A stretch of DNA of 64,000 nt from Luteimonas wenzhouensis (GTDB taxonomy: Bacteria > Pseudomonadota > Gammaproteobacteria > Xanthomonadales > Xanthomonadaceae), in the NCBI RefSeq assembly GCF_007859305.1, contig NZ_VOHE01000010.1, positions 1 to 64,000 of the forward strand, given 5' to 3'. The position numbers were made by a program, and so were the translations under genes. How positions within the stretch are numbered: position 1 is the first letter of the stretch; every line of letters begins with the position of its first letter. Of the stretch, positions 2,450 through 17,454 are shown piece by piece. The notes under the pieces were generated by a model that ran no database searches, had not been told where the DNA came from, and saw only the letters and a list, made by a program, of their open reading frames with translations.

Positions 2450-3772
2450 TCAGGCATCGGCCGCCGGACGCGGGAAGGCGAACGCGGCCACCAGCAGCGA
2501 GACCAGGCAGGCGCCGGTCATGTACCAGCCGAACGAGACGTCGGTGCCGGTGCGCATGTGCAGCCAGGTGGCCATCAGCGGCGCGGTGGAGCCGATCAGG
2601 GTCGTGCCGACGTTGAAGTTCAGCGCCGCGGCGGTGCCGCGCACCTCCGGCGGGAAGGTCAGCACGTAGGCGTGGGTCAGCGGCGCGCCGACGAAGTTGT
2701 TGATGAAGGTGAAGCCGACCACCGCGGCGGTGGCCACCACCACCGAGCCGCCGCCCAGCGCGGTGAAGGTCGGCACGGTGAACAGCACGAAGGCCGCGTA
2801 GCCGACCAGCAGCACGGTCCGGCCGCCATGGCGGTCGGCCAGCAGGCCGCCCCAGATCGCGGCCGGAGGGCCGATGAGGTAGGTCAGGATCGAGGCCAGC
2901 AGCGCCCTGTCGGCGCCGAAGTCGGAGTTGATCAGGGCGACCACGAAGTAGGTCTGGATGCAGAAGGTGCCCACCCGCTGCCCGGCGCCCAGCAGGATCA
3001 CCTGGCACATCTGCCGCCAGTGGCCCCGCACCGCCTCGGTGAACGGGCGCGGCGGCGGCGCCTCCTCGGCGGCCTGCTCCAGCGCCTGCTGGATGCGGGG
3101 CAGCTCCGGCACGCTGCGGCGGATGTACAGCGTGACCAGGCCCAGCGGCGCGGCCAGCAGGAACGGGATGCGCCAGCCCCAGTGTGTGAAGGCGTCCTCG
3201 GGCAGGCCCACGATCAGCGCCAGGGCGACGATGGAGGCCAGCAGCGGCCCGAGCGAGGTCGAACCCACGCTCCATCCCGCCAGGTACTGGCGGCGCCGGC
3301 GCGGCCCGTGCTCGAGGATGAAGTTGGCCGCCACGGTGTACTCGCCGCTGGCGCCCACGCCCTGCACCAGCCGGCACAGCATCAGCAGGATCGGCGCGGC
3401 GATGCCGATGGCCGCGTAGCCGGGCAGCACGCCGATCAGCACCGTGCCGACGGTCATCAGCGCGATGGTGAGGACCAGGGTGAAGCGGTGGCCGCGCAGG
3501 TCGCTCAACCGCCCCATCACCACCCCGCCGACCGGCCTGATCGCATACGAGGCGATCAGGCCGACGTAGGTGGCGATCAGCGCCGCGTAGGGGTCTCCCT
3601 CCGGGAAGAAGATCCGCGACATGAACACCGCCAGGATGCCGTACAGCGCATGGTCGTACCACTCCACCACGTTCCCGAGCACGGCGGTGAACAGCACCCG
3701 GCGCCACACGGGCGAGCCGGCATCGGGGTCGTGCGGGGGCGGCGCGTGCGCCGCCGCGGAGGGATCGTGCAT
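2450..3772 (-). CDS. MFS transporter, metabolite:H+ symporter (MHS) type
   Basis: This is a 440-residue integral membrane protein with about 12 hydrophobic segments. NVVEWYDHALYG near residue 33 and GRLSDLRGHR (loop 2-3) are hallmarks of the MHS subfamily (ShiA, KgtP, ProP), which imports organic acids and zwitterions with protons. It is the last gene of a leftward operon (TonB receptor, two gamma-glutamyltransferases, this gene; gaps of 69, 28 and 33 bases). It most likely carries across the inner membrane whatever the periplasmic transferase releases. GGAG lies eight bases before the ATG. The exact substrate is not readable from sequence. Confidence 0.88.
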   Translation of the reverse strand: MHDPSAAAHAPPPHDPDAGSPVWRRVLFTAVLGNVVEWYDHALYGILAVFMSRIFFPEGDPYAALIATYVGLIASYAIRPVGGVVMGRLSDLRGHRFTLVLTIALMTVGTVLIGVLPGYAAIGIAAPILLMLCRLVQGVGASGEYTVAANFILEHGPRRRRQYLAGWSVGSTSLGPLLASIVALALIVGLPEDAFTHWGWRIPFLLAAPLGLVTLYIRRSVPELPRIQQALEQAAEEAPPPRPFTEAVRGHWRQMCQVILLGAGQRVGTFCIQTYFVVALINSDFGADRALLASILTYLIGPPAAIWGGLLADRHGGRTVLLVGYAAFVLFTVPTFTALGGGSVVVATAAVVGFTFINNFVGAPLTHAYVLTFPPEVRGTAAALNFNVGTTLIGSTAPLMATWLHMRTGTDVSFGWYMTGACLVSLLVAAFAFPRPAADA

Positions 3773-3805
3773 CGGGGACTCCAGGAGAAAGGAAACAGGG
3801 GCGCG

Positions 3806-5425
3806 TCAGTAGCCTTCGACGCTGCCGCAGCGGCGCGGGTCGGCGCACGAGGCCAGCAGGCCGCTGGCCGGGTCCAGGGTGATGGCCTCGAAGTTGCCGG
3901 TGAGCGTGCAGCGCGGGTGCACCCGCTGGTGCCACAGCCGCCGCTCCCGGGCCCAGGCGACGAACCGCTCCTGCATCTGCGGCGCGAAATCGGACTCCAG
4001 TGTGTTGCCGCGTTCCCAGCCGTTCTGCGGATTGTGCGGGCGCGCGCCGAAGCGCGGCTGGTGCACCGAGGCCTCGATGTCCATGCCGAAGTCCATCAGG
4101 TTCACCAGGTTCTGCAGCACGCAGGCCACCAGCGACACCGAGGGCGAGCCGGAGACGATCACCGGCCGGCCGTCGCGCAGGACGATGTTCGGCGCCAGGT
4201 AGACGGTGGCCCGGGCGCCCGGCTGCGGCAGGATCCGCTGGAAGAACGAGCCGCCGCCCGACAGCTGGAAGCCCTCGGCGAACAGGCCGTTGGGCCACCC
4301 CGACGCCATGTGCGAGTGGGTGCAGCTGGCGATGTTGCCGTCCTTGTCCACCGCGGCCAGGTGGATGGTCCCCGGCGTGGGCATGGGCACGCCGGTGGCC
4401 CGCGGCTCGCGCACGCGCATCAGCTCGAAGCGCCGGGCCGCGTACTCCTTGGACAGCAGGATGCCGGTCTCCACCGGCGCGCTGTCCAGGTCGCCCTGCC
4501 GCGGCGGCGCGTAGTAGACCTCGTTGTGCACCCGGATCAGCCACTGCAGCGTCTCGAACGACTCCGAGGCCGGGCCCAGGCGGGCCAGGTCGACGTGCTC
4601 GAGCAGGTTCAGCGCCTCCACCAGCATCATGCCGCCGTCGTCGGGCGCCGGCGAGCCGATCACCGTGTAGCGGTCGCGGTACGTGCCCTGCACCGGCCGC
4701 TGGAACATCGGCCGGTAGGCGCGCAGGTCCTCGGGCACGATCACCCCGCCGCCGCGCTGGCATTCCGCGCTGAAGGCACGGGCGAAATCGCCGTTGTAGT
4801 AGTCCATGCCCTCGTCGCGCAGGCGCTCCAGGGTGCGCGCCACCCGCGCCTGGACCACGGTCTCGCCCTGGGTGAGCAGGTGCCCCTGGGGCCAGAACAC
4901 CTCGCGCCCCTGGACATGCACGCCGATCCCTTCCTGCCTGCCGTACATCACCCCGTACAGGTACGGGTCCATCGGGAAGCCTTCGCGCGCCACCTCGATC
5001 GCGTCGCGCATCAGCCGCGCCCGGCCGGTGCGGCCCCAGCGCTGGCGCGCGGCCTCGAACGCGGGCCACCAGCCGGGCACCGGCACGCCACGGCCGGTGT
5101 ACAGGTCGGCGCCGCTGAAGCCCGGCAGCTCGGCCAGCGGCGCGCTGATGTTGCCGTTGAGGTAGGCCGCCTCGCCGCTGGCCGCGTCCCAGTACATCAT
5201 GCTCAGGCCGCCGGTGATCGAGGTCATGTGCGGCTCGGTGACCAGTTGCATCGCCGCGGCGGCCAGCACCGCGTCGCAGGCGTTGCCGCCCTCGCGCAGC
5301 ACGTCCAGCCCCGCGCGCGTGGCCAGCGGGTCGGAACTGACCACCATGGCCTTGCCCGCTTCCACCCGCCGCTTGCGCCCGAAGCGGGCCTGCGCCATCA
5401 GCGCGGTGCGCTCGTCCAGGTTCAT
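3806..5425 (-). CDS. Gamma-glutamyltransferase family protein, no export signal
   Basis: This 539-residue Ntn-hydrolase of the gamma-glutamyltranspeptidase family is made as a precursor that should cleave itself before the Thr of GTIHLAAVDKDG, the equivalent of TTHxSVVDKDG in classical enzymes. Family landmarks are LATRAGLDVLREGGNACDAVLAA near the start and MDFGMDIEASVHQPRFG near the end. The usual GSPGG oxyanion segment is GSPSV here. Its N-terminus starts directly with family sequence, so unlike its upstream neighbour it appears cytoplasmic. Parts are base-for-base identical to that neighbour. It may act on an imported gamma-glutamyl compound; specificity is unknown. Confidence 0.85.
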   Translation of the reverse strand: MNLDERTALMAQARFGRKRRVEAGKAMVVSSDPLATRAGLDVLREGGNACDAVLAAAAMQLVTEPHMTSITGGLSMMYWDAASGEAAYLNGNISAPLAELPGFSGADLYTGRGVPVPGWWPAFEAARQRWGRTGRARLMRDAIEVAREGFPMDPYLYGVMYGRQEGIGVHVQGREVFWPQGHLLTQGETVVQARVARTLERLRDEGMDYYNGDFARAFSAECQRGGGVIVPEDLRAYRPMFQRPVQGTYRDRYTVIGSPAPDDGGMMLVEALNLLEHVDLARLGPASESFETLQWLIRVHNEVYYAPPRQGDLDSAPVETGILLSKEYAARRFELMRVREPRATGVPMPTPGTIHLAAVDKDGNIASCTHSHMASGWPNGLFAEGFQLSGGGSFFQRILPQPGARATVYLAPNIVLRDGRPVIVSGSPSVSLVACVLQNLVNLMDFGMDIEASVHQPRFGARPHNPQNGWERGNTLESDFAPQMQERFVAWARERRLWHQRVHPRCTLTGNFEAITLDPASGLLASCADPRRCGSVEGY

Positions 5426-5453
5426 GGCCGCCCCCCGCCGCCCGCGACCACGC

Positions 5454-7184
5454 TCACAGTCCCATCGCCACGCCGGCCCGGCGCGGGTCGGCGCAGGCCG
5501 ACAGCCGCCCGCTGTCCGGGTCCTGCACCACCGCCTCGAAACCGCCGGTCAGGGCGGCCCAGGGCTGGACCAGCCTGTGCCACAGGCGGCGCTTTCCGGC
5601 CCACTCCAGGTATTGCCGCTGGATGTCCTCGGAGAAGCCGCATTCGAGGATGTTGCCGCGCTCCCAGCCGTTCTGCGGATTGTGCGGGCGCGCGCCGAAG
5701 CGCGGCTGGTGCACCGAGGCCTCGATGTCCATGCCGAAGTCCATCAGGTTCACCAGGTTCTGCAGCACGCAGGCCACCAGCGACACCGAGGGCGAGCCGG
5801 AGGCGATCACCGGCACGTCGCCGCGCATGACGATGTTCGGCGCCAGGTAGACGGTGGCCCGGGCGCCCGGCTGCGGCAGGATCCGCTGGAAGAACGAACC
5901 GCCGCCCGACAGCTGGAAGCCCTCGGCGAACAGGCCGTTCTCCCAGCCGCCGGCCATGTGCGAGTGGGTGCAGCTGGCGACGTTGCGGTCGCGGTCCATC
6001 GCCGAGATGTGGATGGTGCCCGGCGTGGGCATGATCCGCCCGGCCGGCTGCGGGTCGCGCTGCGACATCAGCTCGAAGCGCCGGGCCGCGTATTCCTTGG
6101 ACAGCAGCAGGGCCACGTCCTCCGGCGCGGTGTCCAGGTCGCCCTGCCGCGGCGGCGCGTAGTAGACCTCGTTGTGCACCCGGATCAGCCACTGCAGCGT
6201 CTCGAACGACTCCGAGGCCGGGCCCAGGCGGGCCAGGTCGACGTGCTCGAGCAGGTTCAGCGCCTCCACCAGCATCATGCCGCCGTCGTCGGGCGCCGGC
6301 GAGCCGATCACCGTGTAGCGGTCGCGGTACGTGCCCTGCACCGGCCGCTGGAACATCGGCCGGTAGGCGCGCAGGTCCTCGGGCACGATCACCCCGCCGC
6401 CGCGCTGGCATTCCGCGCTGAAGGCACGGGCGAAATCGCCGTTGTAGTAGTCCATGCCCTCGTCGCGCAGGCGCTCCAGGGTGCGCGCCACCCGCGCCTG
6501 GCGCAGGGCCTGGCCCGGCATCACCAGGTAGCCGTCGGGCCAGAACACCTCGCGCCCCTGCGGATGGATGCCGATGTTGCCGGCCGAGGAGCTGTAGCTG
6601 GCGAACAGGCGCGGATCGACCGCGAACCCTTCGCGCGCGATGTCGATCGCGTCGCGCATCAGCCGCGCCCGGCCGGTGCGCCCCCAGCGCTGGCGCGCGG
6701 CCTCGAACGCGGGCCACCAGCCGGGCACCGGCACGCCGCGGCCGGTGTACAGGTCCGCGCCGCCGTAGCCCGGCAGCGGCGCCAGGGGGGCGTTGATGTT
6801 GCCGTTGAGGTAGGTCGCCTCGCCGCTGGCCGCGTCCCGGTACATCATGCTCAGGCCGCCGGTGATCGAGGTCATGTGCGGCTCGGTGACCAGCTGCACC
6901 ATCGCCGCGGCCAGCACCGCGTCGCAGGCGTTGCCGCCCTCGCGCAGCACCTCGATGCCGGCGCGCGTGGCCAGCGGGTTGGAGGTGACCACCATCGCGC
7001 CGTCGGCGGTGGCCATCCGCTTCGGACCGGGATGCGCGGCCAGGCCGTCCAGGCCCTGGGGGCGCGCCGGCCGGGCCAGCGCCGGCAGCGCGGCCCCGGC
7101 GGCCGCGCCCAGGCCCACGGCGGCGGCGCCGGCCATGAACCGGCGGCGGCCCGTGGCGTCGGGATGATCGTTGCGGGTACTCAC
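5454..7184 (-). CDS. Tat-exported gamma-glutamyltransferase family protein
   Basis: The 576-residue protein has a twin-arginine signal (RRRFM, then an Ala/Gly-rich hydrophobic stretch) in its first 40 residues, so it should be exported folded to the periplasm. The core is gamma-glutamyltranspeptidase with the predicted autocleavage Thr in GTIHISAMDRD. The start is a GTG at 7184 preceded by AGGAG; no ATG gives the twin-arginine signal. The GSPGG oxyanion motif reads GSPSV. It lies between the TonB receptor and the cytoplasmic paralogue and shares long identical blocks with the latter, suggesting recent duplication or gene conversion. It probably releases gamma-glutamyl groups in the periplasm. 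Confidence 0.87.
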   Translation of the reverse strand: MSTRNDHPDATGRRRFMAGAAAVGLGAAAGAALPALARPARPQGLDGLAAHPGPKRMATADGAMVVTSNPLATRAGIEVLREGGNACDAVLAAAMVQLVTEPHMTSITGGLSMMYRDAASGEATYLNGNINAPLAPLPGYGGADLYTGRGVPVPGWWPAFEAARQRWGRTGRARLMRDAIDIAREGFAVDPRLFASYSSSAGNIGIHPQGREVFWPDGYLVMPGQALRQARVARTLERLRDEGMDYYNGDFARAFSAECQRGGGVIVPEDLRAYRPMFQRPVQGTYRDRYTVIGSPAPDDGGMMLVEALNLLEHVDLARLGPASESFETLQWLIRVHNEVYYAPPRQGDLDTAPEDVALLLSKEYAARRFELMSQRDPQPAGRIMPTPGTIHISAMDRDRNVASCTHSHMAGGWENGLFAEGFQLSGGGSFFQRILPQPGARATVYLAPNIVMRGDVPVIASGSPSVSLVACVLQNLVNLMDFGMDIEASVHQPRFGARPHNPQNGWERGNILECGFSEDIQRQYLEWAGKRRLWHRLVQPWAALTGGFEAVVQDPDSGRLSACADPRRAGVAMGL

Positions 7185-7252
7185 GTGCTCTCCTGTCTGC
7201 TGTGGATAAGGCGCGCGGCCGCCGCGCACGCGGCGCGGCGGCCGCGGCGGCG

Positions 7253-10075
7253 TCACTCGAACGCGAAGCTCATCCGCGCGTAGACGAAGCGCCCGATCAC
7301 GTCGTAGGTGCTGTAGTCCACCGCGAACCTGTCCATCTCCTTGTCGAACAGGTTGTTCACACCCAGGCTGAAGGTCGCGTTCCACGGCTGGTACTGCCAC
7401 GCGCCGGACAGGTCCACGTAGTTGTAGGCCGGCACCTTGTACTTGCACACCACCCCGCCCTGCGGCGTGTCCACCACGGCGCGGCTGCCGTCGCAGTGCG
7501 CACCGGCGGCGGTGTCCAGGTTGTCGACGTAGACATGCGACACGTAGCGGTGGGTCAGCGCCGCGCTGAAGTCGCCCTGCGACCAGTTCAGCGTGGTCCG
7601 CGCGCGGTTGCGGGCGAAGTTGCCCAGGCCGCCGGAGTCCGAGCCCTTCCACTTGCCCGCGTAGCCGACCCGGGTACCGGGCTGGTCGGACACGGCGGTG
7701 TAGTCGTACGAATCCAGGTAGGTGCCGTCGAAGCTGAGCTGGAAGCGTCCGAAGCGGGTCTGGCCGAGGGTCCAGTACAGGCCCAGGTCCACGCCCCGGG
7801 TCTCGATGGTGCCGACGTTGGCCAGGGTGTTGTCGATGTTGACGATGTTGCCCTGGGGACCGCGGCTCACCAGCGAACAGTACGACGGCAGCCCGGAGCG
7901 GTAGCACAGGTCCAGGATGGTCTGCGCGCCCGGGGCCACGATGGCGTCCTCGATGCGGTACTGCCAGAAGTCCACGGAGACCGTCAGCGGGGTGTAGAAG
8001 GACGGGTTGTAGACGAAGCCCACGTTGGTGGCGCGGCCGGTCTCCGGCTGCAGGTTCGGATTGCTGCCGTTGGTGGCGGGCGGCTGCCGCTCGCCGATGA
8101 AGCCGGCGGGCACGTCCGCGCACGCGCCCACGCCGGCGGCCGCCCCGGAGCACGGGTCGTTGACCGTCGGCGTGTCGCCGGTCTGGCCGCCGTACAGGTC
8201 GTCGATGGTCGGGGCGCGGAAGATGTCGGCATAGCTGGCGCGCAGCAGCAGGTCGGCGTACGGGCGCCACTCCAGCCCGAGCTTGGCGTTGGTGGTGTCG
8301 CCGAAGCTGGAGTAGTCGGAGTAGCGCACGCCGGCGGTCAGGTTCAGCGCCTGGGCGAACGGCCGGTCGGCCAGCAGCGGCGCGCTGAACTCGGCATAGA
8401 CCTCGTTCACGTCGTAGCTGCCCCGCGAGGGCGCCTCGGGAGTGGCGTCGACCATCCGGTTGGCCAGCAGGTAGTCGGGCTGGAAATCGGACTTCTGCCG
8501 CCGGTACTCGTAGCCGAAGGCCGCGCCCACCGGGCCGGCCGGAAGGTCGAACAGGTCGCCGGTGATGTTGGCCAGGAAATCGGTCTGCTCGCCGTCGTAC
8601 AGGTTGATCAGGGTCGGCGAGAACGCCTGCAGCTGCTCCCGGGTGAGCGGGCCGAACACGTTGAGCGGGGTGCAGTTGGCGATCACCGCGCCCGGGGCGC
8701 CGCAACGGGCCACGCCGCCGGCGTCGACGAACGAGGGGCCGATCGCGTCCTGCAGCGCGGGCAGGTAGATGCTCCCGGTCTTGGTGATGCGCTGCTGCTG
8801 CTTGGCGTAGGTGAACGCGGTGTCCCAGTCGAAGCGGCCGAGCCGGCCGCGCAGGCCGGTGGTCACCTGCACGTCGTCGCGGTCGTAGGTGCGCACCCGC
8901 GGCCCCAGGTCCACCAGGCGGATGCTGAAGTTGCCGATGTCCGTGCCGAACGGGTTGTAGATGCCGTCGCCCGAGGCGACCACGCCGTAGTTGCCCGCCA
9001 GCAGCGGGTCGGAGGCCAGGGTCGAGTCGGAACGGGTATGGGTGTAGAAGCCGTCGGCGAAGAAGGTCACCGAGGGGGAGAGGTCGTAGCTGCCGTTGAG
9101 GAACAGGCTGTAGCGGTCCTGCGGCGTGCCCAGCTGGGTCTCGCCCGAGAACTCGTACGTGTCGTTGCCCTCGCCCGAGGCGATGTAGCAGCGGAAGTCG
9201 GCCGGCGAGGTGCCGGCCGCGCCGTCCCTCCGGGTCAGGTAGACGGTGCTGGCGGTGTTGCCCGCATTGCCGCAGTCCAGCGACGGGTCCAGCGCGGCCG
9301 CGGTGGCGCGCGGCACCGCGAAGCGGCCGTTGGGGATGGTCGACGAGCCGGCGAACACCGGCCTGCCGTAGCTGAGCGACTGGCTGACCCGGGACCAGTC
9401 GCGGTCGGTGCGCCACATCGCCTTCTGCTTGCCGTAGTTCAGGCCGCCGACGAAGGCGCCGCCGTCGAACGTCCTGCCGAAGGTCAGCTGGTAGCTCTGG
9501 GTCTGGGCATCGCCCTTGTCGCTGGCGCCGTAGTAGGCGCTGAACTCCACCCCGTCCAGGTCCTGGCGGGTGATGACGTTGACCACGCCGGCGATGGCGT
9601 CGGAGCCGTACACCACCGAGGCGCCGTCCTTCAGCACCTCGATGCGCTGGATCATGTTGGCCGGCAGCGCATTGACGTCGCCTGCGTAGTAGCGCACGCC
9701 GTTGAGCAGGATCAGGGTGCGCTCGCTGCCCAGGCCGCGCAGCGAGATGGTCGAGGCGCCGGTGCCCCCGTAGGAGTTGTCGCCGGTGGTCATGCCGGCA
9801 CCGGCGATGTTGGGCAGCTGCTGCAGCAGCTCGCCCACGGTCATGTAGCCGGACTTCTCGATCGTTTCCCGGCTCATGGTGAACACCGGGTTGGCGGTTT
9901 CCGCGTCCACGCGGCGTATGCGCGAGCCGGTCACTGCCACGGTTTCGAGCTGGATGGGCTGATCCGTGCCCGGGGAAGCCTCCTGCGGCTGGTCCTGGGC
10001 CGCGGCCGGCATGCCGCTGATCGCCAGCATGCACGCCGCGGCCAGCACGCCGAGCCTGGGTGTCGTTGCACTCAT
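7253..10075 (-). CDS. TonB-dependent outer membrane receptor
   Basis: This 940-residue protein has a signal peptide ending AAAQ, a TonB-box-like segment (LETVAVTGSRIRR), a plug domain (VGELLQQLPNIAG; SLRGLGSERTLILLNG; IEVLKDGASVVYGSDAIAGVVNVITR) and a long beta-barrel with NPNLQPET. It is the large Xanthomonad type that imports sugars, peptides or modified amino acids rather than a classic siderophore receptor. It is the first gene of the leftward operon with two gamma-glutamyltransferases and an MHS transporter. A perfect TTGGTCTAGACCAA-type palindrome lies 186 bases upstream, so control by the adjacent GntR regulator is likely. Confidence 0.93.
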   Translation of the reverse strand: MSATTPRLGVLAAACMLAISGMPAAAQDQPQEASPGTDQPIQLETVAVTGSRIRRVDAETANPVFTMSRETIEKSGYMTVGELLQQLPNIAGAGMTTGDNSYGGTGASTISLRGLGSERTLILLNGVRYYAGDVNALPANMIQRIEVLKDGASVVYGSDAIAGVVNVITRQDLDGVEFSAYYGASDKGDAQTQSYQLTFGRTFDGGAFVGGLNYGKQKAMWRTDRDWSRVSQSLSYGRPVFAGSSTIPNGRFAVPRATAAALDPSLDCGNAGNTASTVYLTRRDGAAGTSPADFRCYIASGEGNDTYEFSGETQLGTPQDRYSLFLNGSYDLSPSVTFFADGFYTHTRSDSTLASDPLLAGNYGVVASGDGIYNPFGTDIGNFSIRLVDLGPRVRTYDRDDVQVTTGLRGRLGRFDWDTAFTYAKQQQRITKTGSIYLPALQDAIGPSFVDAGGVARCGAPGAVIANCTPLNVFGPLTREQLQAFSPTLINLYDGEQTDFLANITGDLFDLPAGPVGAAFGYEYRRQKSDFQPDYLLANRMVDATPEAPSRGSYDVNEVYAEFSAPLLADRPFAQALNLTAGVRYSDYSSFGDTTNAKLGLEWRPYADLLLRASYADIFRAPTIDDLYGGQTGDTPTVNDPCSGAAAGVGACADVPAGFIGERQPPATNGSNPNLQPETGRATNVGFVYNPSFYTPLTVSVDFWQYRIEDAIVAPGAQTILDLCYRSGLPSYCSLVSRGPQGNIVNIDNTLANVGTIETRGVDLGLYWTLGQTRFGRFQLSFDGTYLDSYDYTAVSDQPGTRVGYAGKWKGSDSGGLGNFARNRARTTLNWSQGDFSAALTHRYVSHVYVDNLDTAAGAHCDGSRAVVDTPQGGVVCKYKVPAYNYVDLSGAWQYQPWNATFSLGVNNLFDKEMDRFAVDYSTYDVIGRFVYARMSFAFE

Positions 10076-10200
10076 GGGTACGCTTTCCTCTCTCGCATAG
10101 ACGTCAACGCCAGTCCGCCGCTCCCGCGAGGTCGCCCACGGCTGGCACGGCACCGTTCTGGTTCGGGATGGCCATCACCGCGCCCGGGGGCCGGACCGGC

Positions 10201-10210
10201 GTATACCAAT
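10201..10210. promoter_or_regulatory. Possible half operator of the GntR regulator
   Basis: GTATACCAAT matches the right half of the palindrome in front of frlB (TATACCAA), and its partner half is degenerate (CCGGC). It may be an auxiliary weak site between the receptor gene and the full palindrome. This is inference from sequence similarity only. Confidence 0.3.
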
Positions 10211-10260
10211 AGGCGACCCCGGTAGACCGGCCCGTCCCAGAAGCGTGTCACAAGAGTTAC

Positions 10261-10276
10261 ATTGGTCTAGACCAAT
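10261..10276. promoter_or_regulatory. Perfect 16-base palindrome, probable GntR/HutC operator
   Basis: ATTGGTCTAGACCAAT is a perfect palindrome and fits the TGGTCTAGACCA consensus known for HutC-subfamily regulators such as NagR/YvoA and DasR. It lies in the 296-base gap between the regulator and the TonB-receptor operon. On the minus strand a TTGCAT and a weak TAACTC box flank it at 17 bases, so a bound repressor would cover the spacer of a possible promoter for the receptor operon. Confidence 0.7.
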
Positions 10277-10371
10277 ATGCAAGTGGCATAGCACCAATTT
10301 CACGCCCGCGCAGCGGGAGCCTCCCGGGAACCGGGGGCGAGGAGAGCGGCCGCGACCGCCGCCATGCACGC

Positions 10372-11151
10372 TCAGGCCGTCATCTCGGCCTTGGAGGTCT
10401 TGAACATCACCAACCCGGGATGGTTGACCGATCGCATGTACTCGACCGGCCGGCCCTGCTCGTCGTAGACCTCCAGGCGCAGCAGCAGGCAGGCCGAGCC
10501 GGCGGGCAGGCCGAGCAGCCGCGCCTCCATGTCGCTGCCGGCGGCGACCGATATCTGGCGCTCGCCGGTCACCGTCCCGATGCCGTAGCGGTCGCGCAGC
10601 AGCCCGTACAGCGACTGCCCGGCCATCAGGTCCTCGGCGGCCAGCCCGGGCACCAGGCCCAGGGGGATGTGGCTGGTCTCTATGCAGCAGGGCGTGTCGT
10701 TGACCGTCCACAGGCGGCGGAACATGACGATCTCGCTGCCCTCCTTGATCTGCAGGTGTTCGGCGACCTGGGCGCTGGCGCGGGTCTGCTCGAAGTGCAG
10801 CAGCTTGTTGCCGGCCACGCTGCCGCCGCTCTGGATGATCCGGGTGATGCCGAGCGAGGTCCGCGCATCGATCGGCCGCATCACCCGCGGCATGGGGATG
10901 CGGGTGCCGCTGGTGCTGTTGCGCTCCAGCAGGCCCTGCGCGACCAGACCGTCGATCGCCTTGCGCACCGTCATCCGGTTCTTCCCAAGCTGCTCGGCCA
11001 GGGCCCGCTCCGACGGGATCCGGTCCCCGGGCCCGTAGTCCGGCCCGCGGATCAGGTCGAGGATGAATTTCTGGATGGCTTTATAGGCGGGGACCGTCTC
11101 GTCCAGGGCGACGGCGGGCGGCGGGATCGGGGTGGCGGTGTCTTGGACCAT
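10372..11151 (-). CDS. GntR family regulator, HutC subfamily (FrlR-like)
   Basis: The 259-residue regulator has an N-terminal winged helix-turn-helix (YKAIQKFILDLI, IPSERALAEQLGKNRMTVRKAIDGL, about residues 20-85) and a C-terminal UTRA ligand domain typical of HutC-type sensors, which often bind phosphorylated sugars. It lies between two divergent catabolic operons. Palindromes matching the HutC consensus stand before the TonB-receptor operon and before frlB, the latter in the gap shared with this gene's own promoter. By analogy with the regulator of fructoselysine genes it probably represses both operons until an intermediate such as a fructosamine 6-phosphate appears. The ligand is inferred. 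Confidence 0.88.
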   Translation of the reverse strand: MVQDTATPIPPPAVALDETVPAYKAIQKFILDLIRGPDYGPGDRIPSERALAEQLGKNRMTVRKAIDGLVAQGLLERNSTSGTRIPMPRVMRPIDARTSLGITRIIQSGGSVAGNKLLHFEQTRASAQVAEHLQIKEGSEIVMFRRLWTVNDTPCCIETSHIPLGLVPGLAAEDLMAGQSLYGLLRDRYGIGTVTGERQISVAAGSDMEARLLGLPAGSACLLLRLEVYDEQGRPVEYMRSVNHPGLVMFKTSKAEMTA

Positions 11152-11268
11152 GGCCTGGCAGGAGGAAGGGACGGTTAACCATCGCAGATTGTGGACTAGC
11201 AAAGCCAGCTCTGGCTTCGATCTGCCTGTTGTACTTGGTCGATGCAATTGGTAGTCTCACCTTCGTTA

Positions 11269-11282
11269 TTGGTATATACCAA
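11269..11282. promoter_or_regulatory. Palindromic operator upstream of frlB
   Basis: TTGGTATATACCAA is a perfect 14-base palindrome with the same TTGGT/ACCAA arms as the site at 10261. It ends 15 bases before the frlB start codon and lies in the divergent gap shared with the regulator gene, so one bound dimer could control frlB transcription and perhaps autoregulate the regulator. A further half site (AATTGGTAGT) is seen at about 11247. Confidence 0.7.
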
Positions 11283-11297
11283 CGGAGAGCTACACCC

Positions 11298-12311
11298 ATG
11301 GCATCGGAAGTGAATCGCAGCGCCATCCTGTCCGGACTGGCCCAGACCGTATCGGCATTGCCGGAAGCGATGGCGCTCGGGCGCAGCTTGGCCGGCGAGG
11401 TGGACCGCATCTATTTCGTCGCGCACGGCTCGGCCAACCGCGCCATGCAGGGGATACAGTACTGGATCGAGCATTTCAGCCCGTCGCTGGAGGTCCGCCG
11501 CTACTTCCCGTCCGAGCTGATGGCGCAGGATCCGCCCCGGCTGGACGAGCGCACCCTGGTCCTGCTGGCCTCCAAGTCGGGGACCACGCCGGAGACGGTC
11601 GCCGCGGCCGAGTACCTGCGCGGCAAGCCCTGTCGCACGGTCGGCTTCACCCTGAAGGGCGACAGCCCGCTGGCCGGGCTGGCCCAGAAGGGCTTCCTGG
11701 CCGGCGACACCGGCGAGTCCTTCGTGGCGCTGTTCATGCTGATGCAGGCGGTGGTCGGCGGCCTGCTGGCCGAGCGCGACGGCTGGCCGCACGCCGACGA
11801 GCTGCTGTCGTCGCTGTCGGCGCTGCCCGGCGTGATCGCCGACGCGGCCGCCGGCAACGACGCCCGCGCCCGCGCCGACGCGCAGGCGTACCAGCACGAC
11901 CACAACCTGTACCACGTGGCCTCCGGCCCCGGCTTCACCCCGGCCTACGTGTTCGGCGTGTGCATCCTGATGGAGATGCTGTGGCTGCACAGCTACCCGA
12001 TCGAGGCGGCCGAGTTCTTCCACGGCCCCTTCGAGATCGTCGACGGGGACACCCCGCTGATCCTGATCCTGGGCGAGGATCCCAGCCGGCCGCTGATGGA
12101 GCGCGTGCTGCGCTTCTGCAACAAGCACGCCAGGCGCCTGATGATCTACGATTCCCGCGACTACGAGATGGAGGGCATCGCCCCGGCGATCCGCCCGATC
12201 GTCGCGCCCTACGTGTTGCAGGCCGCCCTCAAGCGGTTGTCCGAGCACCTGTCCGACCTGCGCGGCCAGCCGCTCAGCACGCGCCGTTACATGTGGAAGA
12301 CCGAATACTGA
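11298..12311 (+). CDS. frlB: SIS-domain fructosamine-6-phosphate deglycase, FrlB-like
   Basis: This is a 337-residue protein with two SIS sugar-phosphate domains. It resembles FrlB, the fructoselysine 6-phosphate deglycase, in length and motifs: RIYFVAHGSANRA (phosphate loop), LLASKSGTTPET, the catalytic-region EFFHGPFEIVDGDTPLILILG, and the ending RRYMWKTEY. Such enzymes split an Amadori-compound 6-phosphate into glucose 6-phosphate and the free amino acid. GGAG sits 10-14 bases before the ATG, next to the operator. The gene starts an operon with the cognate kinase 16 bases downstream. Which amino acid is attached cannot be read; FraB-type (fructose-asparagine) specificity is an alternative. 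Confidence 0.82.
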   Translation: MASEVNRSAILSGLAQTVSALPEAMALGRSLAGEVDRIYFVAHGSANRAMQGIQYWIEHFSPSLEVRRYFPSELMAQDPPRLDERTLVLLASKSGTTPETVAAAEYLRGKPCRTVGFTLKGDSPLAGLAQKGFLAGDTGESFVALFMLMQAVVGGLLAERDGWPHADELLSSLSALPGVIADAAAGNDARARADAQAYQHDHNLYHVASGPGFTPAYVFGVCILMEMLWLHSYPIEAAEFFHGPFEIVDGDTPLILILGEDPSRPLMERVLRFCNKHARRLMIYDSRDYEMEGIAPAIRPIVAPYVLQAALKRLSEHLSDLRGQPLSTRRYMWKTEY

Positions 12312-12327
12312 GCGCGGCGCGACGACC

Positions 12328-13182
12328 ATGGCCAGCCACCATCGCATCCTCGGCATCGGCGACAACACCGTCGACACCTACGTCTCCGCCCGGGTCCAGT
12401 ACCCGGGCGGCAACGCGGTCAACGTGGCGGCGCTGGCGCGCCGCCTCGGGGCCCGCAGCGCCTACCTGGGCTGCGTGGGCGAGGACGCCGGCGGGCGCCT
12501 GGTCCTCGACGCGCTGCGCGCCGAGGACGTGGACGTGTCCCGGGTGCGCGTGCGCCCGGGCGAGAACGCCCGCGCGTTCGTGTCCCACGACCGCGGCGAC
12601 CGGCGCTTCCTCGGGTCCCATCCGGGCGTGCGGGCGCAGTACCGGCTGAGCGACGCCGACTTCGACTACGTGGCCGGCTTCGACCTCGTGCACACCAGCG
12701 TCTACAGCGACCTGGGCCCGGAGCTGCCGCGCCTGGCGGCGGCGGCGCGGCAGCTGTCCTTCGACTGCTCCGACCGCTGGGACGACGCGCTGCTGGGCCA
12801 GGTCGCCGGCGCGATGGACGTGCTGTTCCTTTCGGCCGCCCACCTGCGCGAGGAGGACTGCCGGGCGCTGCTGGAGCGCTGCATCGGCCACGGCGCGCGC
12901 TGCGCGGTGGCCACCCGCGGCGCGGCCGGGGCGCTGGCCGCGGACGCTGGCGGCGGCGTCCACCGCCAGGACGTGTTCCCGGCCGAGGTGGTGGACACGC
13001 TCGGCGCCGGCGACGGCTTCATCACCGCCTTCCTGCTCGCCCGGCTGGACGGCCGGCCGCTGCCGGACTGCCTCCAGGCCGGGGCGCGCTTCGCCGCCCA
13101 GGTCTGCGGCTGGCAGGGCGGCTTCGGCCACGGCCGCCCCTGGGACGGCGACGGCGGCCACCACCTGGAGCGCGCGCCGTGA
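12328..13182 (+). CDS. frlD: PfkB-family fructosamine 6-kinase, FrlD-like
   Basis: This 284-residue ribokinase-fold sugar kinase starts with IGDNTVDTY and has GGNAVNVAALARRLG, as FrlD does, and the PfkB signature VVDTLGAGDGFITAFLLARL (about residues 224-243) with the catalytic Asp. The DRWDDALL segment also matches the FrlD pattern. It should phosphorylate the 6-hydroxyl of a fructosyl-amino acid, giving the substrate of the upstream deglycase. The Shine-Dalgarno sequence is poor, and coupling to frlB across the 16-base gap is likely. A generic sugar kinase is the main alternative, but pairing with the SIS protein favours an Amadori kinase. Confidence 0.83.
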   Translation: MASHHRILGIGDNTVDTYVSARVQYPGGNAVNVAALARRLGARSAYLGCVGEDAGGRLVLDALRAEDVDVSRVRVRPGENARAFVSHDRGDRRFLGSHPGVRAQYRLSDADFDYVAGFDLVHTSVYSDLGPELPRLAAAARQLSFDCSDRWDDALLGQVAGAMDVLFLSAAHLREEDCRALLERCIGHGARCAVATRGAAGALAADAGGGVHRQDVFPAEVVDTLGAGDGFITAFLLARLDGRPLPDCLQAGARFAAQVCGWQGGFGHGRPWDGDGGHHLERAP

Positions 13183-13261
13183 ACCCGCGCGTCCTGCTCC
13201 GCCTGCACACCGCGGCGCGCGGCGCGCGCCGCCCCACTCCCTCATTCCTCAAGGGCATCGC

Positions 13262-15316
13262 ATGAATTGGCGTATTGGCGTGGATTCCGGCGGCACGTTC
13301 ACCGACGTCTACCTGTTTGAAGAAGGCAGCGGGCGGACCGAGATCTGGAAGGTCTCCTCGACCCCCGACGATCCCTCGCGCGGCATCGCCCAGGGCGTGG
13401 CCGAGGCCCTGCAGCGCGTCGGGGCGACCCCGGACGCGGTGGGCTACTTCGGCCACGGCACCACGGTCGGCACCAACGCGCTGATCCAGCTCCGCGGCGT
13501 GCCCACCGGCCTGATCACCACCGACGGCTTCCGCGACCTGCTGGAGATCGGCCGGCAGAAGCGCCCCGAGCTGTACGACCTCCAGGCCGACAAGCCGCCG
13601 GTCCTGGTCGCCCGCGACCTGCGCCTGGAGGTGCCCGAGCGCGTGCGCCACGATGGCAGCGTCGAGACCGCCCTGGACGAGCAGGCCGTGCGCGAGGCCG
13701 CGCGCGCGCTGCGCGAGGCCGGCGTGCGCTCGGTGGCGATCAGCTTCCTGTACGGGTTCGTCCGGCCCGAGCACGAGCAGACCGCGCGCAGGATCGTGGC
13801 CGAGGAGTTCCCCGACGCGTTCGTCTCCGTCTCCTCCGAGGTGGCGCCCGAGTTCCGCGAGTACGAGCGCATGTCCACCACCGTCGTCAACGCCTACCTG
13901 GGCCCGGTGATGGAGCGCTACATCCGCCGCCTGGCCGACCGCCTGGCCGCGCTGGGGCTGGGGGTCGCGCCGCACCTGACCCAGTCCAACGGCGGCGTGA
14001 TCGGCTTCGAGCAGGCCTCGCGCCTGCCGGTGCGCACCGTCCTGTCCGGCCCGAGCACGGGCGTGGTCGCGGCCCAGGCCATCGGCGAGCAGACCGGCTT
14101 CGGCAACCTCATCACCTTCGACGTCGGCGGCACCAGCAGCGACGTGGCCCTGCTCCAGGACGGCCGCTGCGCGCTGGCCAGCGAGGCGGTGGTGCACGGC
14201 TACCCGATCAAGGCGCCGATGCTGGACATCCACACCGTCGGCGCCGGCGGCGGCTCGATCGCCTACGTGGACAACGGCGGCCTGCTCAAGGTCGGCCCGC
14301 GCAGCGCCGGCGCCGACCCGGGCCCGGTGTGCTACGGCCGCGGCAACACCGAGCCCACGGTGACCGACGCCAACGTGGTGCTGCAGACGCTCAATCCCAC
14401 GCACCTGCTGGCGGGGCGCATGCCGATCGACCGGCAGCTGGCGGTGGCGGCAGTGGAGCGGCTGGCCGGGCGCCTCGGCCTGGGGGTCATGGAGACCGCC
14501 CAGGGCATCCTCTCGGTGGTGACCGCCAACATGGCCCGCGCGATCCGCGTGATCAGCGTGCAGCGCGGGCACGACCCGCGCGACTACAGCCTGGTCGCCT
14601 TCGGCGGCGCCGGCCCGCTCCATGCCGCGCGCCTGGCGCGGGAGCTGGAGATGACGCGGGTGATCGTGCCGCTGACCCCCGGCATCCTCAGCGCCACCGG
14701 TCTGCTGCTGACCGACCTGCGCGCCGATTTCGCCGGCAGCCTGATGCGGCAGCTCGACGCCGGCGCCGCCGGCCCGCTGGAACGGGCCTTCGCCGCGCTG
14801 GAGCGCCAGGCCGAGGCCTGGTTCCGGGACGAGCGCATCGATCCGGCCGACCGCGCCCTGGCACGCTCCATCGACGTGCGCTACCTCGGCCAGAACTACG
14901 AGATCGCGGTGCAGGTGCCCGACGGCCCGATCGGGCCGGCCACCCTGGAGACCGTCGCCGCCCGCTTCGCCGCCGAGCACGAGCGCCTGTACGGGTTCTC
15001 GGCCGAAGGCGAGCCGGTCCAGCTGGTGACCTGCCGCGCCGGCGCCACCGGCCGGGTGCGCAAGGCCGCGTTCCGGCCGCAGCCCGACGCCGGTCCGGAC
15101 CCGTCCCCGGCCCTCGCCGGCCGGCGCCAGGTGTGGATGCCTGAGTACGGCGACTTCGTCGACTGCCCGGTCTACGACCGCGCGCGGCTCGAGGCCGGCA
15201 ACCGCATCGCCGGCCCGGCGATCGTCGAACAGATGGACACCACCACCGTGGTCCTGCCCGGCATGACCGCCACGGTCGAGCCCTACCTCAACCTGATTCT
15301 GGAGTTCGGAGCATGA
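13262..15316 (+). CDS. hyuA: Hydantoinase/5-oxoprolinase family protein, subunit A
   Basis: The 684-residue protein is of the HyuA type. It has an ASKHA-fold ATPase start (GVDSGGTFTDVYLF), then GHGTTVGTNALI, LSGPSTGVVAAQAIG, FDVGGTSSDVALL and GGAGPLHAARLARELEM. These enzymes use ATP to phosphorylate the amide carbonyl of cyclic amides (5-oxoproline, hydantoins, caprolactam) for opening by subunit B. AAGGG precedes the ATG. The stop overlaps the hyuB start by four bases. In this operon it may open pyroglutamate or a related lactam formed from glutamyl or glutaminyl products, which links it to the gamma-glutamyltransferases. The actual lactam is unknown. Confidence 0.9.
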   Translation: MNWRIGVDSGGTFTDVYLFEEGSGRTEIWKVSSTPDDPSRGIAQGVAEALQRVGATPDAVGYFGHGTTVGTNALIQLRGVPTGLITTDGFRDLLEIGRQKRPELYDLQADKPPVLVARDLRLEVPERVRHDGSVETALDEQAVREAARALREAGVRSVAISFLYGFVRPEHEQTARRIVAEEFPDAFVSVSSEVAPEFREYERMSTTVVNAYLGPVMERYIRRLADRLAALGLGVAPHLTQSNGGVIGFEQASRLPVRTVLSGPSTGVVAAQAIGEQTGFGNLITFDVGGTSSDVALLQDGRCALASEAVVHGYPIKAPMLDIHTVGAGGGSIAYVDNGGLLKVGPRSAGADPGPVCYGRGNTEPTVTDANVVLQTLNPTHLLAGRMPIDRQLAVAAVERLAGRLGLGVMETAQGILSVVTANMARAIRVISVQRGHDPRDYSLVAFGGAGPLHAARLARELEMTRVIVPLTPGILSATGLLLTDLRADFAGSLMRQLDAGAAGPLERAFAALERQAEAWFRDERIDPADRALARSIDVRYLGQNYEIAVQVPDGPIGPATLETVAARFAAEHERLYGFSAEGEPVQLVTCRAGATGRVRKAAFRPQPDAGPDPSPALAGRRQVWMPEYGDFVDCPVYDRARLEAGNRIAGPAIVEQMDTTTVVLPGMTATVEPYLNLILEFGA

Positions 15317-16968
15317 GCACCTCCACCGCAACCGCGCGGGTCCCGGTCGATCCGATCACGGTCGAGGTCATCGGCAGCGCCCTGTCCTCGATCGTGGAGG
15401 AGATGGGCGAGGCCCTGGTCCGCGCCAGCCACTCGGCCAACATCAAGGAGCGGCGCGACTGCTCCACCGCGCTGTTCGACACCTCCGGCCAGGCGCTGTG
15501 CCAGGCCGAGCACATCCCGATGCACCTGGGCAGCTTCCTCGGCATCATCCCGCACATCCTCAAGCGCCATGCGCCGGAGGAGATCCGTCCCGGCGACGTG
15601 TTCATCGGCAACGACGCCTACGAGGGCGGCGCCACCCACCTGCCGGACATCGTGATCGCCGAGCCGGTGTTCTACGACGGCGCGCTGGTGGCCTGGGCGG
15701 TCAACACCGCCCACCACGCCGACTTCGAGGACCGCGGCCACGCCCACATCTACCAGGAGGGCCTGCGCATCCCGCCGATCCGGCTGTACCGGGCCGGCGT
15801 GCTGCAGGAGGACCTGCAGGCGATGTTCCTGCTCAACTGCCAGGTTCCGCGCGAGCGCATCTCCGACCTGCGCGCGCAGATGGCCGCCAACCGCCTCGCC
15901 TGCGAGCGCCTGGGCAAGCTGTGCGCCAAGTACGGCCGCGAGGTGGTGCTGTCGGCGGGCCAGGAGCTGATGGACTACGCCGAGCGCAAGATGCGCGCCG
16001 GCATCGCCGCCATTCCCGACGGCACCTACCGCTTCAGCGACCGCTTCGACAATCCGGCCATCGACGGCGAGATGGTGTTCGAGTGCGAGGTGCGGGTGCA
16101 GGGCGACGAGATGCACCTGCGCTTCGACGGCCCCGACCAGGTCCGCGCCGGACTGAACATGGTGTTCACCGCGCTGCTGTCGACGGTGTACTACGCGGTC
16201 AAGACCGTGGTCGACCCGACCATCCTGCCCAACGGCGGGCTGGCGCGGCCGCTGCACGTGAGCGCGCGCGAGGGCAGCATCCTCAACTGCCGGCATCCGG
16301 CCGCGGTGAACGGCCGCATCGCCCCCTGCCAGCGCATCGTCGACCTGGTCCACGGCGCGCTGGCGCAGGTCGTGCCCGAGCGCGTGACCGCCGCCGGCAA
16401 CGGCGCGGTGGCCTCGGCCACCTTCGTCGGCACCCGTCCGGACGGCGAACTGTGGGTCTACCTGGAGACCATCGGCGGCGGCGCCGGCGCACGCGCCACC
16501 AAGGACGGGCTGGACGGCGTGCACGTGCACATGACCAACACCTCCAACCTGCCGGCCGAGGCGCTGGAGCAGGAATATCCGCTCACCCTTCTGCGCTACG
16601 AGATGGTCGACGGCTCCGGCGGCGCCGGGCGCTTCCGCGGCGGCATGGGCCTGCGCCGGGTCTACCGCGCCGAACGCAGCTGCCGGGTCAAGGTGGACGG
16701 CTCGCGCATGCGCAGCCAGCCCTGGGGCCTGGCCGGGGGCCTGCCCGGATCCAGCGGCGGCTACGCCTTCAGCGACGGCGTGCAGGTGGCCAACGGCATC
16801 GCCGACCTGCAGCCGGGTGACCGGGTCACGGTGATCACGCCCGGCGCCGGCGGCTACGGGCCGCCCGCCGAGCGCAGCCCGGAGGCGGTGATGCGCGACC
16901 TCGCCGAACGCCGGATCGACCCGGTCGCGGCGCAGCGCATCTACGCCGCGCAGCTGTCCGGGCGCTAG
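15313..16968 (+). CDS. hyuB: Hydantoinase/5-oxoprolinase family protein, subunit B
   Basis: The 551-residue HyuB-type subunit is complete: DPITVEVIGSALSSIVEEMGEALVRASHSANIKERRDCS at the start, GNDAYEGGATHLPDI, NTAHHADF (metal-site histidines), and the glycine-rich GSGGAGRFRGGMGLRRVYR near the end. It forms the hydrolytic partner of HyuA. Translation is coupled by an ATGA overlap with hyuA. It ends the rightward operon at a strong hairpin. It resembles the split bacterial A/B enzymes, not the fused eukaryotic 5-oxoprolinase. Confidence 0.9.
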   Translation: MSTSTATARVPVDPITVEVIGSALSSIVEEMGEALVRASHSANIKERRDCSTALFDTSGQALCQAEHIPMHLGSFLGIIPHILKRHAPEEIRPGDVFIGNDAYEGGATHLPDIVIAEPVFYDGALVAWAVNTAHHADFEDRGHAHIYQEGLRIPPIRLYRAGVLQEDLQAMFLLNCQVPRERISDLRAQMAANRLACERLGKLCAKYGREVVLSAGQELMDYAERKMRAGIAAIPDGTYRFSDRFDNPAIDGEMVFECEVRVQGDEMHLRFDGPDQVRAGLNMVFTALLSTVYYAVKTVVDPTILPNGGLARPLHVSAREGSILNCRHPAAVNGRIAPCQRIVDLVHGALAQVVPERVTAAGNGAVASATFVGTRPDGELWVYLETIGGGAGARATKDGLDGVHVHMTNTSNLPAEALEQEYPLTLLRYEMVDGSGGAGRFRGGMGLRRVYRAERSCRVKVDGSRMRSQPWGLAGGLPGSSGGYAFSDGVQVANGIADLQPGDRVTVITPGAGGYGPPAERSPEAVMRDLAERRIDPVAAQRIYAAQLSGR

Positions 16969-17033: not shown

Positions 17034-17454
17034 TCACCGGGGCTTGAGCACCAGGTCCTGGAAGTCAAAGCTGAAGTCGGTCAGGTCCGAGGCCGCCTCC
17101 ATCCGCGCCTCGCGCACCTTGCCGTCCGGATCCAGGTGGAAGGTGACGAAGGCATCGCCGTTGAGCGTGCGCTCGCGCCACTTCACCAGGAAGGTGTCGT
17201 GCTGCCAGTGCTGCAGCTCGCCCACCAGCAGCGGGCTGCGGGTGAAGCGCATCAGCAGGCGCCCGTTCTCCTGCTTCACCTCGACGTCGCCGTACCAGGC
17301 ATCGCGGTAGGTCGCGGCGTAGCCGGACAGCGGCAGCGAGGGCTTGGAGCGCTTGTCGCGCGCGGCCACGCGCTTGGCCCAGGCGTCGTCGGCGCGGGCC
17401 TTCGACTTTTCCGCCGCCGCGGCATAGGCCGCCACCCAGTCGACCCGCTCGGCC
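17034..17454 (-). pseudogene. C-terminal remnant of a serine hydrolase (DUF3471-like domain)
   Basis: About 140 codons match the small beta-rich domain found at the end of beta-lactamase-like serine hydrolases (YAATYRDAWYGDVEV, LLMRFTRSPLLVGELQHWQHDTF). It is preceded by the helical linker ERVDWVAAYAAAAEKSKARADDAW. The whole catalytic domain with its SxxK motif is absent: the frame is cut at about 17454, exactly where an unrelated topoisomerase remnant begins on the other strand. A GTG at 17435 could start a 133-residue product, but no upstream promoter is left. Most likely a dead fragment. Confidence 0.7.

Follow-up and report, generated by a model that had tools for sequence, protein, structure and literature searches.

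The 64-kb stretch of DNA analysed here (the window; positions 1 to 64,000 of contig NZ_VOHE01000010.1 of Luteimonas wenzhouensis, which begins at the contig's base 1 in a genome of 3.44 Mb) contains a nine-gene island that raises the question of what a HyuAB-type ATP-dependent lactamase does beside a deglycase and a kinase of the type used on glycated amino acids. A sequence-only reading had described eight gene families in divergent operons around one regulator, and all nine genes were confirmed at their coordinates using Pfam and NCBIfam profiles on the window proteins. The answer favoured here, with a modest lean towards its being right, is that the horizontally distributed island serves the use of fructosyl-glutamine, fructosyl-glutamate and, above all, their lactam N-(1-deoxyfructosyl)-5-oxoproline as predicted substrates. 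This answer draws on gene content, palindrome sharing, the HyuA subfamily and the retention of catalytic residues in the deglycase and in the N-terminal nucleophile (Ntn) hydrolases, from which we infer the substrates, the order of steps, the roles of the transporters, the effector and the activity of the proteins resembling gamma-glutamyltransferase (GGT). The grouping of the genes goes beyond chance, the nine-gene block being found also in Pseudoxanthomonas broegbernensis and a palindrome being private to both operons.

The HyuAB lactamase and its likely substrate

The adjacent HyuA and HyuB subunits contained the domains PF05378, PF01968, PF19278 and PF02538, all above cut-off, which placed the pair in the oxoprolinase/hydantoinase A+B superfamily, for which the name ATP-dependent lactamase has been used (PMC8453981). 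'5-Oxoprolinase', like 'gamma-glutamyltransferase' elsewhere in the island, is a label at family level only. HyuB was the sole Hydantoinase_B match in the genome. The CapA and CapB models gave 615.8 and 268.7 bits, both below a cut-off of 1000, and the best solved chain for HyuA was an N-methylhydantoinase at 538.6 bits. Close kin of HyuA were found on plasmids, with full-length identities of 67.7% to HyuA of the octopine Ti plasmid (684 residues) and 68.4% to that of pAoF64/95. The hyuAB neighbours on the octopine Ti plasmid are DAO, RidA and peptide ABC genes, and we take this to be the region for agropinic acid (N-mannityl-pyroglutamate), the genes presumably being agaF and agaG. Ring closure of mannopinic acid to its lactam gives agropinic acid. 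Plasmid pAoF64/95 has been described as having the complete mannityl-opine genes together with an operon for agropinic acid uptake (PMC6341043).

A plasmid search with HyuA gave 52 of 1008 matching records at 60–80% identity, and in a 60-row sample spread over the matching records the values below that band were 59.7%, 46.6% and 45.8%. The relatives used for comparison were 31 loci obtained by scanning named genomes, mainly Bosea and other alphaproteobacteria with one Brevibacillus, and the gene counts given for them come from a tblastn table. In a tree of 38 HyuA proteins the deglycase-linked sequences (n = 23; the window, 21 relative loci and Terrarubrum) grouped with those of Ti, pAo, Martelella and Paracoccus plasmids in one 27-row clade with support of 97/95. 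HyuA of the relative loci L057 and L059 and HyuA of the chrysopine Ti plasmids fell in two other clades.

Lactam opening had previously been read as the last step, acting on free pyroglutamate. Genes for PxpA, PxpB, PxpC and a pyroglutamyl peptidase were identified with Pfam on another contig, and because the PxpBCA genes are separate, free 5-oxoproline should need no HyuAB; their presence would make HyuAB redundant as a free-5-oxoproline hydrolase, although it could still act as one. Together with the Ti/pAo subfamily of HyuA, these separate genes speak against the order first proposed and suggest that HyuAB most likely acts ahead of the deglycase and opens the lactam with the sugar still attached, turning fructosyl-pyroglutamate into fructosyl-glutamate. 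Because the leaving group of an Amadori deglycase is an amine, the ring would have to open first, and HyuAB is placed before the deglycase. Opening of a lactam ring by a HyuA/B pair has been proposed for the succinamopine lactams of pTiEU6 (PMC6733357). The PxpB, PxpC, PxpA and pyroglutamyl peptidase genes lie clustered in the same genome (C12:79000-88000, L090), forming a separate island for free pyroglutamate.

Deglycase, kinase and a shared palindrome

The nearest solved structure to the FrlB-like protein was 3eua, titled as a putative fructose-aminoacid-6-phosphate deglycase. An alignment of 25 hand-chosen deglycases, from 14 of the 31 relative loci and with E. coli FrlB included, revealed that the columns of Glu226 and His242, 16 residues apart, were invariant in all 25 proteins. 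This Glu/His pair is presumably catalytic in FraB. The Glu position is occupied by Ala in PDB entry 9otu and by Glu in the sister entry 9otj. The SIS fold and the paired Glu/His place the protein among the FrlB/FraB-type deglycases. It gave 109.9 bits with the FrlB equivalog model NF008481, below the cut-off of 430, and on its sequence it is related to fructoselysine 6-phosphate deglycase without being its equivalog. The FrlD-like protein likewise fell below the cut-off of the fructoselysine 6-kinase model NF007321 (206.2 against 247 bits), and its gene was present in 30 of the 31 relative loci. The conserved Glu/His pair supports the assignment, made in the sequence-only reading, of an Amadori-type deglycase and kinase.

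A whole-genome scan gave exactly two copies of the perfect palindrome TTGGTNTANACCAA, one before each operon (Table 1). Allowing up to one mismatch, the window contained two matches and 100 shuffled versions contained none. Because the palindrome precedes both operons and these are its only perfect copies in the genome, the operons are likely to act together, consistent with the earlier claim that they form one system, and they look like one private regulon with putative operators. The GntR/UTRA protein is presumed to be the repressor that binds both palindromes; a regulator gene was found in 29 of the 31 relative loci. The core TGGTNTANACCA, one mismatch being allowed, was located within 200 bp upstream of frlB in 28 of 32 loci (the window and the 31 relatives) and in all five plasmid loci, compared to 148 of 5918 random 200-bp stretches from the same loci, a control that includes genuine sites elsewhere. 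The core was absent from this interval in L074, L075, L078 and L079 and lay 156–165 bp from frlB in L067, L076 and L081. The palindrome also lies ahead of the TonB-receptor gene in P. broegbernensis (L055), and the corresponding site in Sphingomonas BK235 (L056) has one mismatch. No palindrome sites were found in the stretches checked of pTiChry5, the octopine Ti plasmid and pAoF64/95.

Ten mostly Bosea loci (L060-L066, L071, L082 and L083) have palindrome sites beside a gene for a peptide-binding protein, and in nine of them (not L065) RidA, DAO and SDR genes are also adjacent to sites. The regulon looks larger in these ten loci.

The features of the island are collected in Table 1. The starts of the TonB receptor, GGT2, the regulator and frlB were chosen by hand, the mechanical open reading frame starts being longer. 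The TonB receptor would provide uptake across the outer membrane and the MHS symporter uptake across the inner membrane.

Table 1. Genes and operator-like sites of the island in the window
Feature	Position	Strand	Basis or remark
MHS-type MFS symporter	2450-3772	-	Pfam; TIGR00883 best model but under its cut-off
GGT1, G_glu_transpept / GGT-superfamily Ntn hydrolase	3806-5425	-	Pfam; no obvious signal peptide
GGT2, G_glu_transpept / GGT-superfamily Ntn hydrolase	5454-7184	-	Pfam; TGRRRFMAG twin-arginine-like start
TonB-dependent receptor	7253-10075	-	PF00593, PF07715
Operator-like perfect palindrome TTGGTCTAGACCAA	10262..10275		Precedes the TonB-receptor/GGT/MHS operon
GntR/UTRA (HutC/FrlR-type) regulator	10372-11151	-	PF07702, PF00392
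Operator-like perfect palindrome TTGGTATATACCAA	11269..11282		Gap between regulator and frlB; ends 15 bp before the frlB ATG
FrlB-like SIS-domain 6-phosphate deglycase (predicted)	11298-12311	+	Pfam, NCBIfam, best PDB match 3eua
FrlD-like PfkB kinase	12328-13182	+	Pfam, NCBIfam
HyuA, ATP-dependent lactamase subunit A, Ti/pAo-plasmid subfamily	13262-15316	+	Pfam, identity, tree
HyuB, ATP-dependent lactamase subunit B	15313-16968	+	Pfam

Distribution of the island and the GGT-like proteins

The same nine genes were found in P. broegbernensis as one 14.6-kb block with 89.9% DNA identity, flanked by matches to the same genes as in the window. When 395 genomes of the family were searched, the own genome included, the deglycase was present only in the own genome (100%) and in P. 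broegbernensis (90%), and the best match in the remaining genomes had an E value of 1e-15 (57.6 bits). Matches at E <= 0.001 occurred in 386 of the 395 genomes; only the two strong rows were used, and the others, with identities of at most 30% among the matches listed, were set aside as probable GlmS/NagB-type background. A search of 398 genomes of the phylum, again including the own genome, gave eight with the deglycase at E <= 1e-30, one of which was a Bosea at 69%. The core of regulator, deglycase and kinase recurs among alphaproteobacteria. HyuA and HyuB accompany it in 23 of the 31 relative loci, with 21 of these HyuA proteins belonging to the window subfamily (69–92% identity) and those of L057 and L059 to another (43%). 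The run of genes in Terrarubrum also ends with HyuAB, and on four Deinococcus plasmids the listed run consists of regulator, deglycase, kinase and binding protein only. MHS was present in 5 of the 31 loci, a DAO oxidase (at least 50% identity) in 17, a peptide-type binding protein in 16 and a sugar-type binding protein in 5, all five of the latter being loci without HyuA. The GGT clade of the window was present in two of the relative loci, and a search of the 398 phylum genomes for this clade at E <= 1e-60 returned the own genome only. The island is patchy, and HyuAB rather than the GGT pair is the recurrent companion of the core. The co-conservation expected from the sequence-only reading is supported by the complete island in P. 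broegbernensis and by the relative loci.

In Sphingobium L057 and the metagenome-assembled genome L059 the usual pair is substituted by HyuAB of the 43% subfamily, with frlBD and the palindrome retained. The flanks of the window island are formed by the ends of a DUF3471 gene (17034-17435, minus strand) and a DUF885 gene (2235-2427), with matches of 80% and 79% respectively in P. broegbernensis, where the former is a full beta-lactamase-DUF3471 gene. Elsewhere in the window, positions 1-279 encode the C-terminal part of an apparent IS3-type transposase at the contig start, as read by eye from the translation, and a tRNA call by ARAGORN at 61515-61606, whose anticodon would have four bases (ggcg), is probably spurious.

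The two GGT-like proteins scored 222.7 and 207.9 bits with TIGR00066, below the cut-off of 357.85. The nucleophilic threonine is retained, Thr353 of GGT1 in the motif GT-I-H being equivalent to Thr391. Alignments revealed that the donor-binding Arg114 of GGT is replaced by Asn, the PLSSMxP motif by ATVYLAP and the Gly-Gly pair by Ser-Val, and that the Asp433 segment has no counterpart. The roles of Arg114, Asp433 and the nucleophile have been described (PMC8062742), and roles at the donor site also in PMC6769717. The label of transferase consequently appears doubtful, and the GGT pair is an accessory part of the island. A place for the transferases as a defining part of the island is not supported, given their presence in two of 31 loci, compared to 23 for HyuA, and the loss of the donor motifs, but a FraE-like amidohydrolase role, in place of the asparaginase of the Salmonella Fra system, is possible, and the altered donor pocket would fit a substrate that carries the sugar on its alpha-amine. 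GGT2 is probably exported, judging from a start resembling a twin-arginine translocation signal read by eye, and GGT1 would be cytoplasmic.

Several candidate readings of these proteins were rejected. Loss of the nucleophile, suggested by GT-I-H against AT-H, was discarded since 2e0w is a T391A mutant and the first threonine is the nucleophile; 4y23 has the same pattern as 2e0w at this position. The tandem arrangement was not accepted as proof of a two-compartment pathway, as Sphingomonas BK235 has a single copy with no obvious signal peptide. A GGT gene near the Bosea L062 cluster, above the TIGR00066 cut-off, and an annotated ggt near the Terrarubrum cluster were not counted as parts of their islands, having no palindrome beside them. 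When GGT1 was modelled with AlphaFold on an alignment of six rows, the mean predicted local distance difference test score (pLDDT) was 47.8 and the model was not used. The two GGT-like genes (window 3806-7184) have in common an identical run of 371 nt, and the run in P. broegbernensis is 61 nt long; this suggests that the genes underwent conversion recently in this genome.

Proposed pathway, alternatives and known systems

In the proposed pathway one GntR/UTRA repressor would control both operons through the one palindrome and would probably be released by a phosphorylated sugar-amino acid, the type of effector proposed for E. coli FrlR (PMC12632257). The TonB receptor, followed by the MHS symporter, would import the compound. 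The GGT-like Ntn hydrolases may hydrolyse the gamma-amide of fructosyl-glutamine, and HyuAB with ATP would open the gamma-lactam of fructosyl-pyroglutamate, both reactions giving fructosyl-glutamate. The FrlD-like kinase could add the 6-phosphate either ahead of the HyuAB step or following it, and the FrlB-like deglycase would then release glucose 6-phosphate and glutamate; as the deglycase needs an amine rather than an amide nitrogen, deglycation would take place only after ring opening. A wider form of this proposal, for which the case is about evenly balanced, is a 'lactam-opening deglycation' in which the kinase and deglycase receive N-fructosyl-glutamate from two sources, an ATP-dependent lactamase like those of crown-gall opine regions and a GGT-fold amidohydrolase turned to a new use, with HyuAB recruited at least three times: in the alphaproteobacterial core, which would have spread to two Lysobacteraceae genomes, in the Sphingobium-type replacement and in the chrysopine Ti assembly.

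A number of observations weigh against this proposal. HyuA is missing from eight of the 31 relative loci (L067, L074, L075, L076, L078, L079, L081 and L084; L078 and L079 lie on short contigs), so that lactam opening is not needed for the deglycase/kinase core to work. Many Bosea loci have DAO oxidases and the window has none, and the substrate of the Bosea loci may differ from that of the window. The HyuA clade includes Martelella and Paracoccus plasmid genes, for which we know of no opine link, so that kinship of HyuA does not prove a substrate. The substrate of HyuAB may be an unrelated lactam or hydantoin. Several joins in the tree are long-branched according to the tree tool's own warning. 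No palindrome lies near the GGT genes by the Bosea L062 and Terrarubrum clusters. Active GGTs with Ser in place of the Arg exist, and Asp433/445 mutants still hydrolyse (PMC8062742); because active GGTs vary at the same residues, gamma-glutamyl hydrolysis by the GGT-like proteins could still take place.

This last point bears on a reading in which the GGT pair are true hydrolases that trim gamma-glutamyl peptides, glycated or plain, imported through the TonB receptor, with HyuAB handling the cyclised glutamyl ends. Such a role would suit GGT-superfamily proteins with a catalytic threonine that lie behind the same palindrome, one of them probably exported and the other not, but the replacement of Arg114, the Asp433 region, PLSSMxP and Gly-Gly, though some active GGTs vary there, and the absence of the clade from 29 of the 31 relative loci make it improbable. 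An unlikely order of events is that deglycation comes first and HyuAB opens free pyroglutamate derived from the products. Membership of the oxoprolinase/hydantoinase superfamily would permit this, but the genome has PxpA/B/C and pyroglutamyl peptidase genes elsewhere, HyuA belongs to the Ti/pAo subfamily with lower similarity to the N-methylhydantoinase and the CapA model, and a deglycase with an amine as leaving group should make no pyroglutamate itself.

The closeness of HyuA to the octopine Ti plasmid and pAoF64/95 would also be expected if the island served the use of mannityl opines, with HyuAB opening agropinic acid and an oxidation of the sugar part then supplying the kinase and deglycase with fructosyl-glutamate. 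In line with this, genes for DAO, RidA, SDR and a peptide-type binding protein are further present in Bosea loci, as in the Ti region. The window island, however, is without an oxidoreductase gene for the step from mannityl to fructosyl, and this explanation is quite unlikely. We give least credence to another sugar-amine, formed from a different ketose or amine, as the substrate of the deglycase and kinase, with HyuAB acting on a lactam other than pyroglutamate; the FrlB and FrlD models were both missed at their cut-offs, but the best PDB match is the putative fructose-aminoacid-6-phosphate deglycase 3eua and the Ti/pAo kin of HyuA indicate a lactam derived from glutamate. The use of fructosyl-glutamine, fructosyl-glutamate and their lactam is retained as the preferred explanation.

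The Amadori compounds formed with glutamine or glutamate cyclise readily to a lactam. The parts covered of the Frl, Fra and Soc literature gave no account of how bacteria open this ring. Literature searches that paired HyuAB or oxoprolinase with Amadori compounds or deglycases, and others on fructosyl-pyroglutamate, gave no title or abstract opening on this combination among the records listed in the library searched; part of the lactam-opening picture may already be in print. The locus names a candidate enzyme for the opening of Amadori lactams, its substrate being predicted through a subfamily common to opine plasmids, which suggests that opine use and the use of ordinary glycation products share parts. 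If true, the repeated recruitment of HyuAB would link opine use on Ti plasmids to the consumption of Maillard-type lactams in soil.

The Amadori lactam (dfop) presumably occurs with chrysopine-type strains, and the title of one study calls the chrysopine opine family 'amadori-type'. The combination of HyuAB, deglycase and kinase is not unique to the window island, being found also on the chrysopine Ti plasmids pTi2788 and pTiChry5, in a row of LysR, HyuA, HyuB, SIS, an annotated fructoselysine 6-kinase and a peptide ABC transporter. Chrysopine HyuA was present at 99% identity or more in six plasmid records, and the gene order was taken from these two. pTi2788 is of the chrysopine/nopaline type and KX388536 is the chrysopine-type pTiChry5 (PMC10410297, PMC6733357), and deoxyfructosyl-glutamine has been reported in tumours of chrysopine-type strains (PMC4231840). 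Their operon resembles that of the window in combining lactamase, deglycase and kinase and differs in having a LysR regulator and a peptide ABC transporter. Because its SIS protein and HyuA are only 27.7% and 45.8% identical to those of the window, it was apparently assembled independently on plasmids for Amadori opines. HyuAB would then have joined a deglycase and kinase on about three occasions, one of them on Ti plasmids of the chrysopine type. Another SIS-PfkB pair on the chrysopine plasmids (L113 5939-7789, L110 7145-8995) adjoins genes for an Xaa-Pro peptidase and a LacI regulator and is possibly a second system for glycated amino acids. The octopine Ti plasmid and pAoF64/95 share the HyuAB pair with the window, but the neighbours listed there are DAO, SDR, RidA and peptide ABC genes, and the stretches covered, in an incomplete gene table, list no SIS or PfkB gene.

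SocABCD of Agrobacterium pAtC58 comprises what we take to be an amadoriase and an oxidoreductase, unlike the deglycase and kinase of the window. Its use of deoxyfructosyl-glutamine (PMC4231840) resembles the role proposed here. In A. tumefaciens F2 a SIS gene, 34.5% identical to FrlB, is located near soc-type genes. The Frl systems of E. coli and B. subtilis have an FrlB-like deglycase, an FrlD-like kinase and the GntR-type FrlR, the E. coli FrlB and FrlD being 29% and 34% identical to those of the window. Their transporter is FrlA or the ABC system FrlONM, and the E. coli frl run and the B. subtilis operon as described have no lactamase or Ntn hydrolase (PMC12632257). Salmonella Fra (FraB, FraD, FraE and a transporter) resembles the window island in its GntR regulator, kinase, SIS deglycase and dicarboxylate-type transporter and in having a periplasmic side-chain amidohydrolase, there an asparaginase that handles fructose-asparagine (PMC4072780, PMC9609667). 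It differs in that this enzyme is an asparaginase, and the Fra genes described include no HyuAB, TonB receptor or GGT-like enzyme. The functional class first assigned to the island is right, and the system is best described as one of the Fra/Frl kind with a lactamase of the Ti/pAo type.

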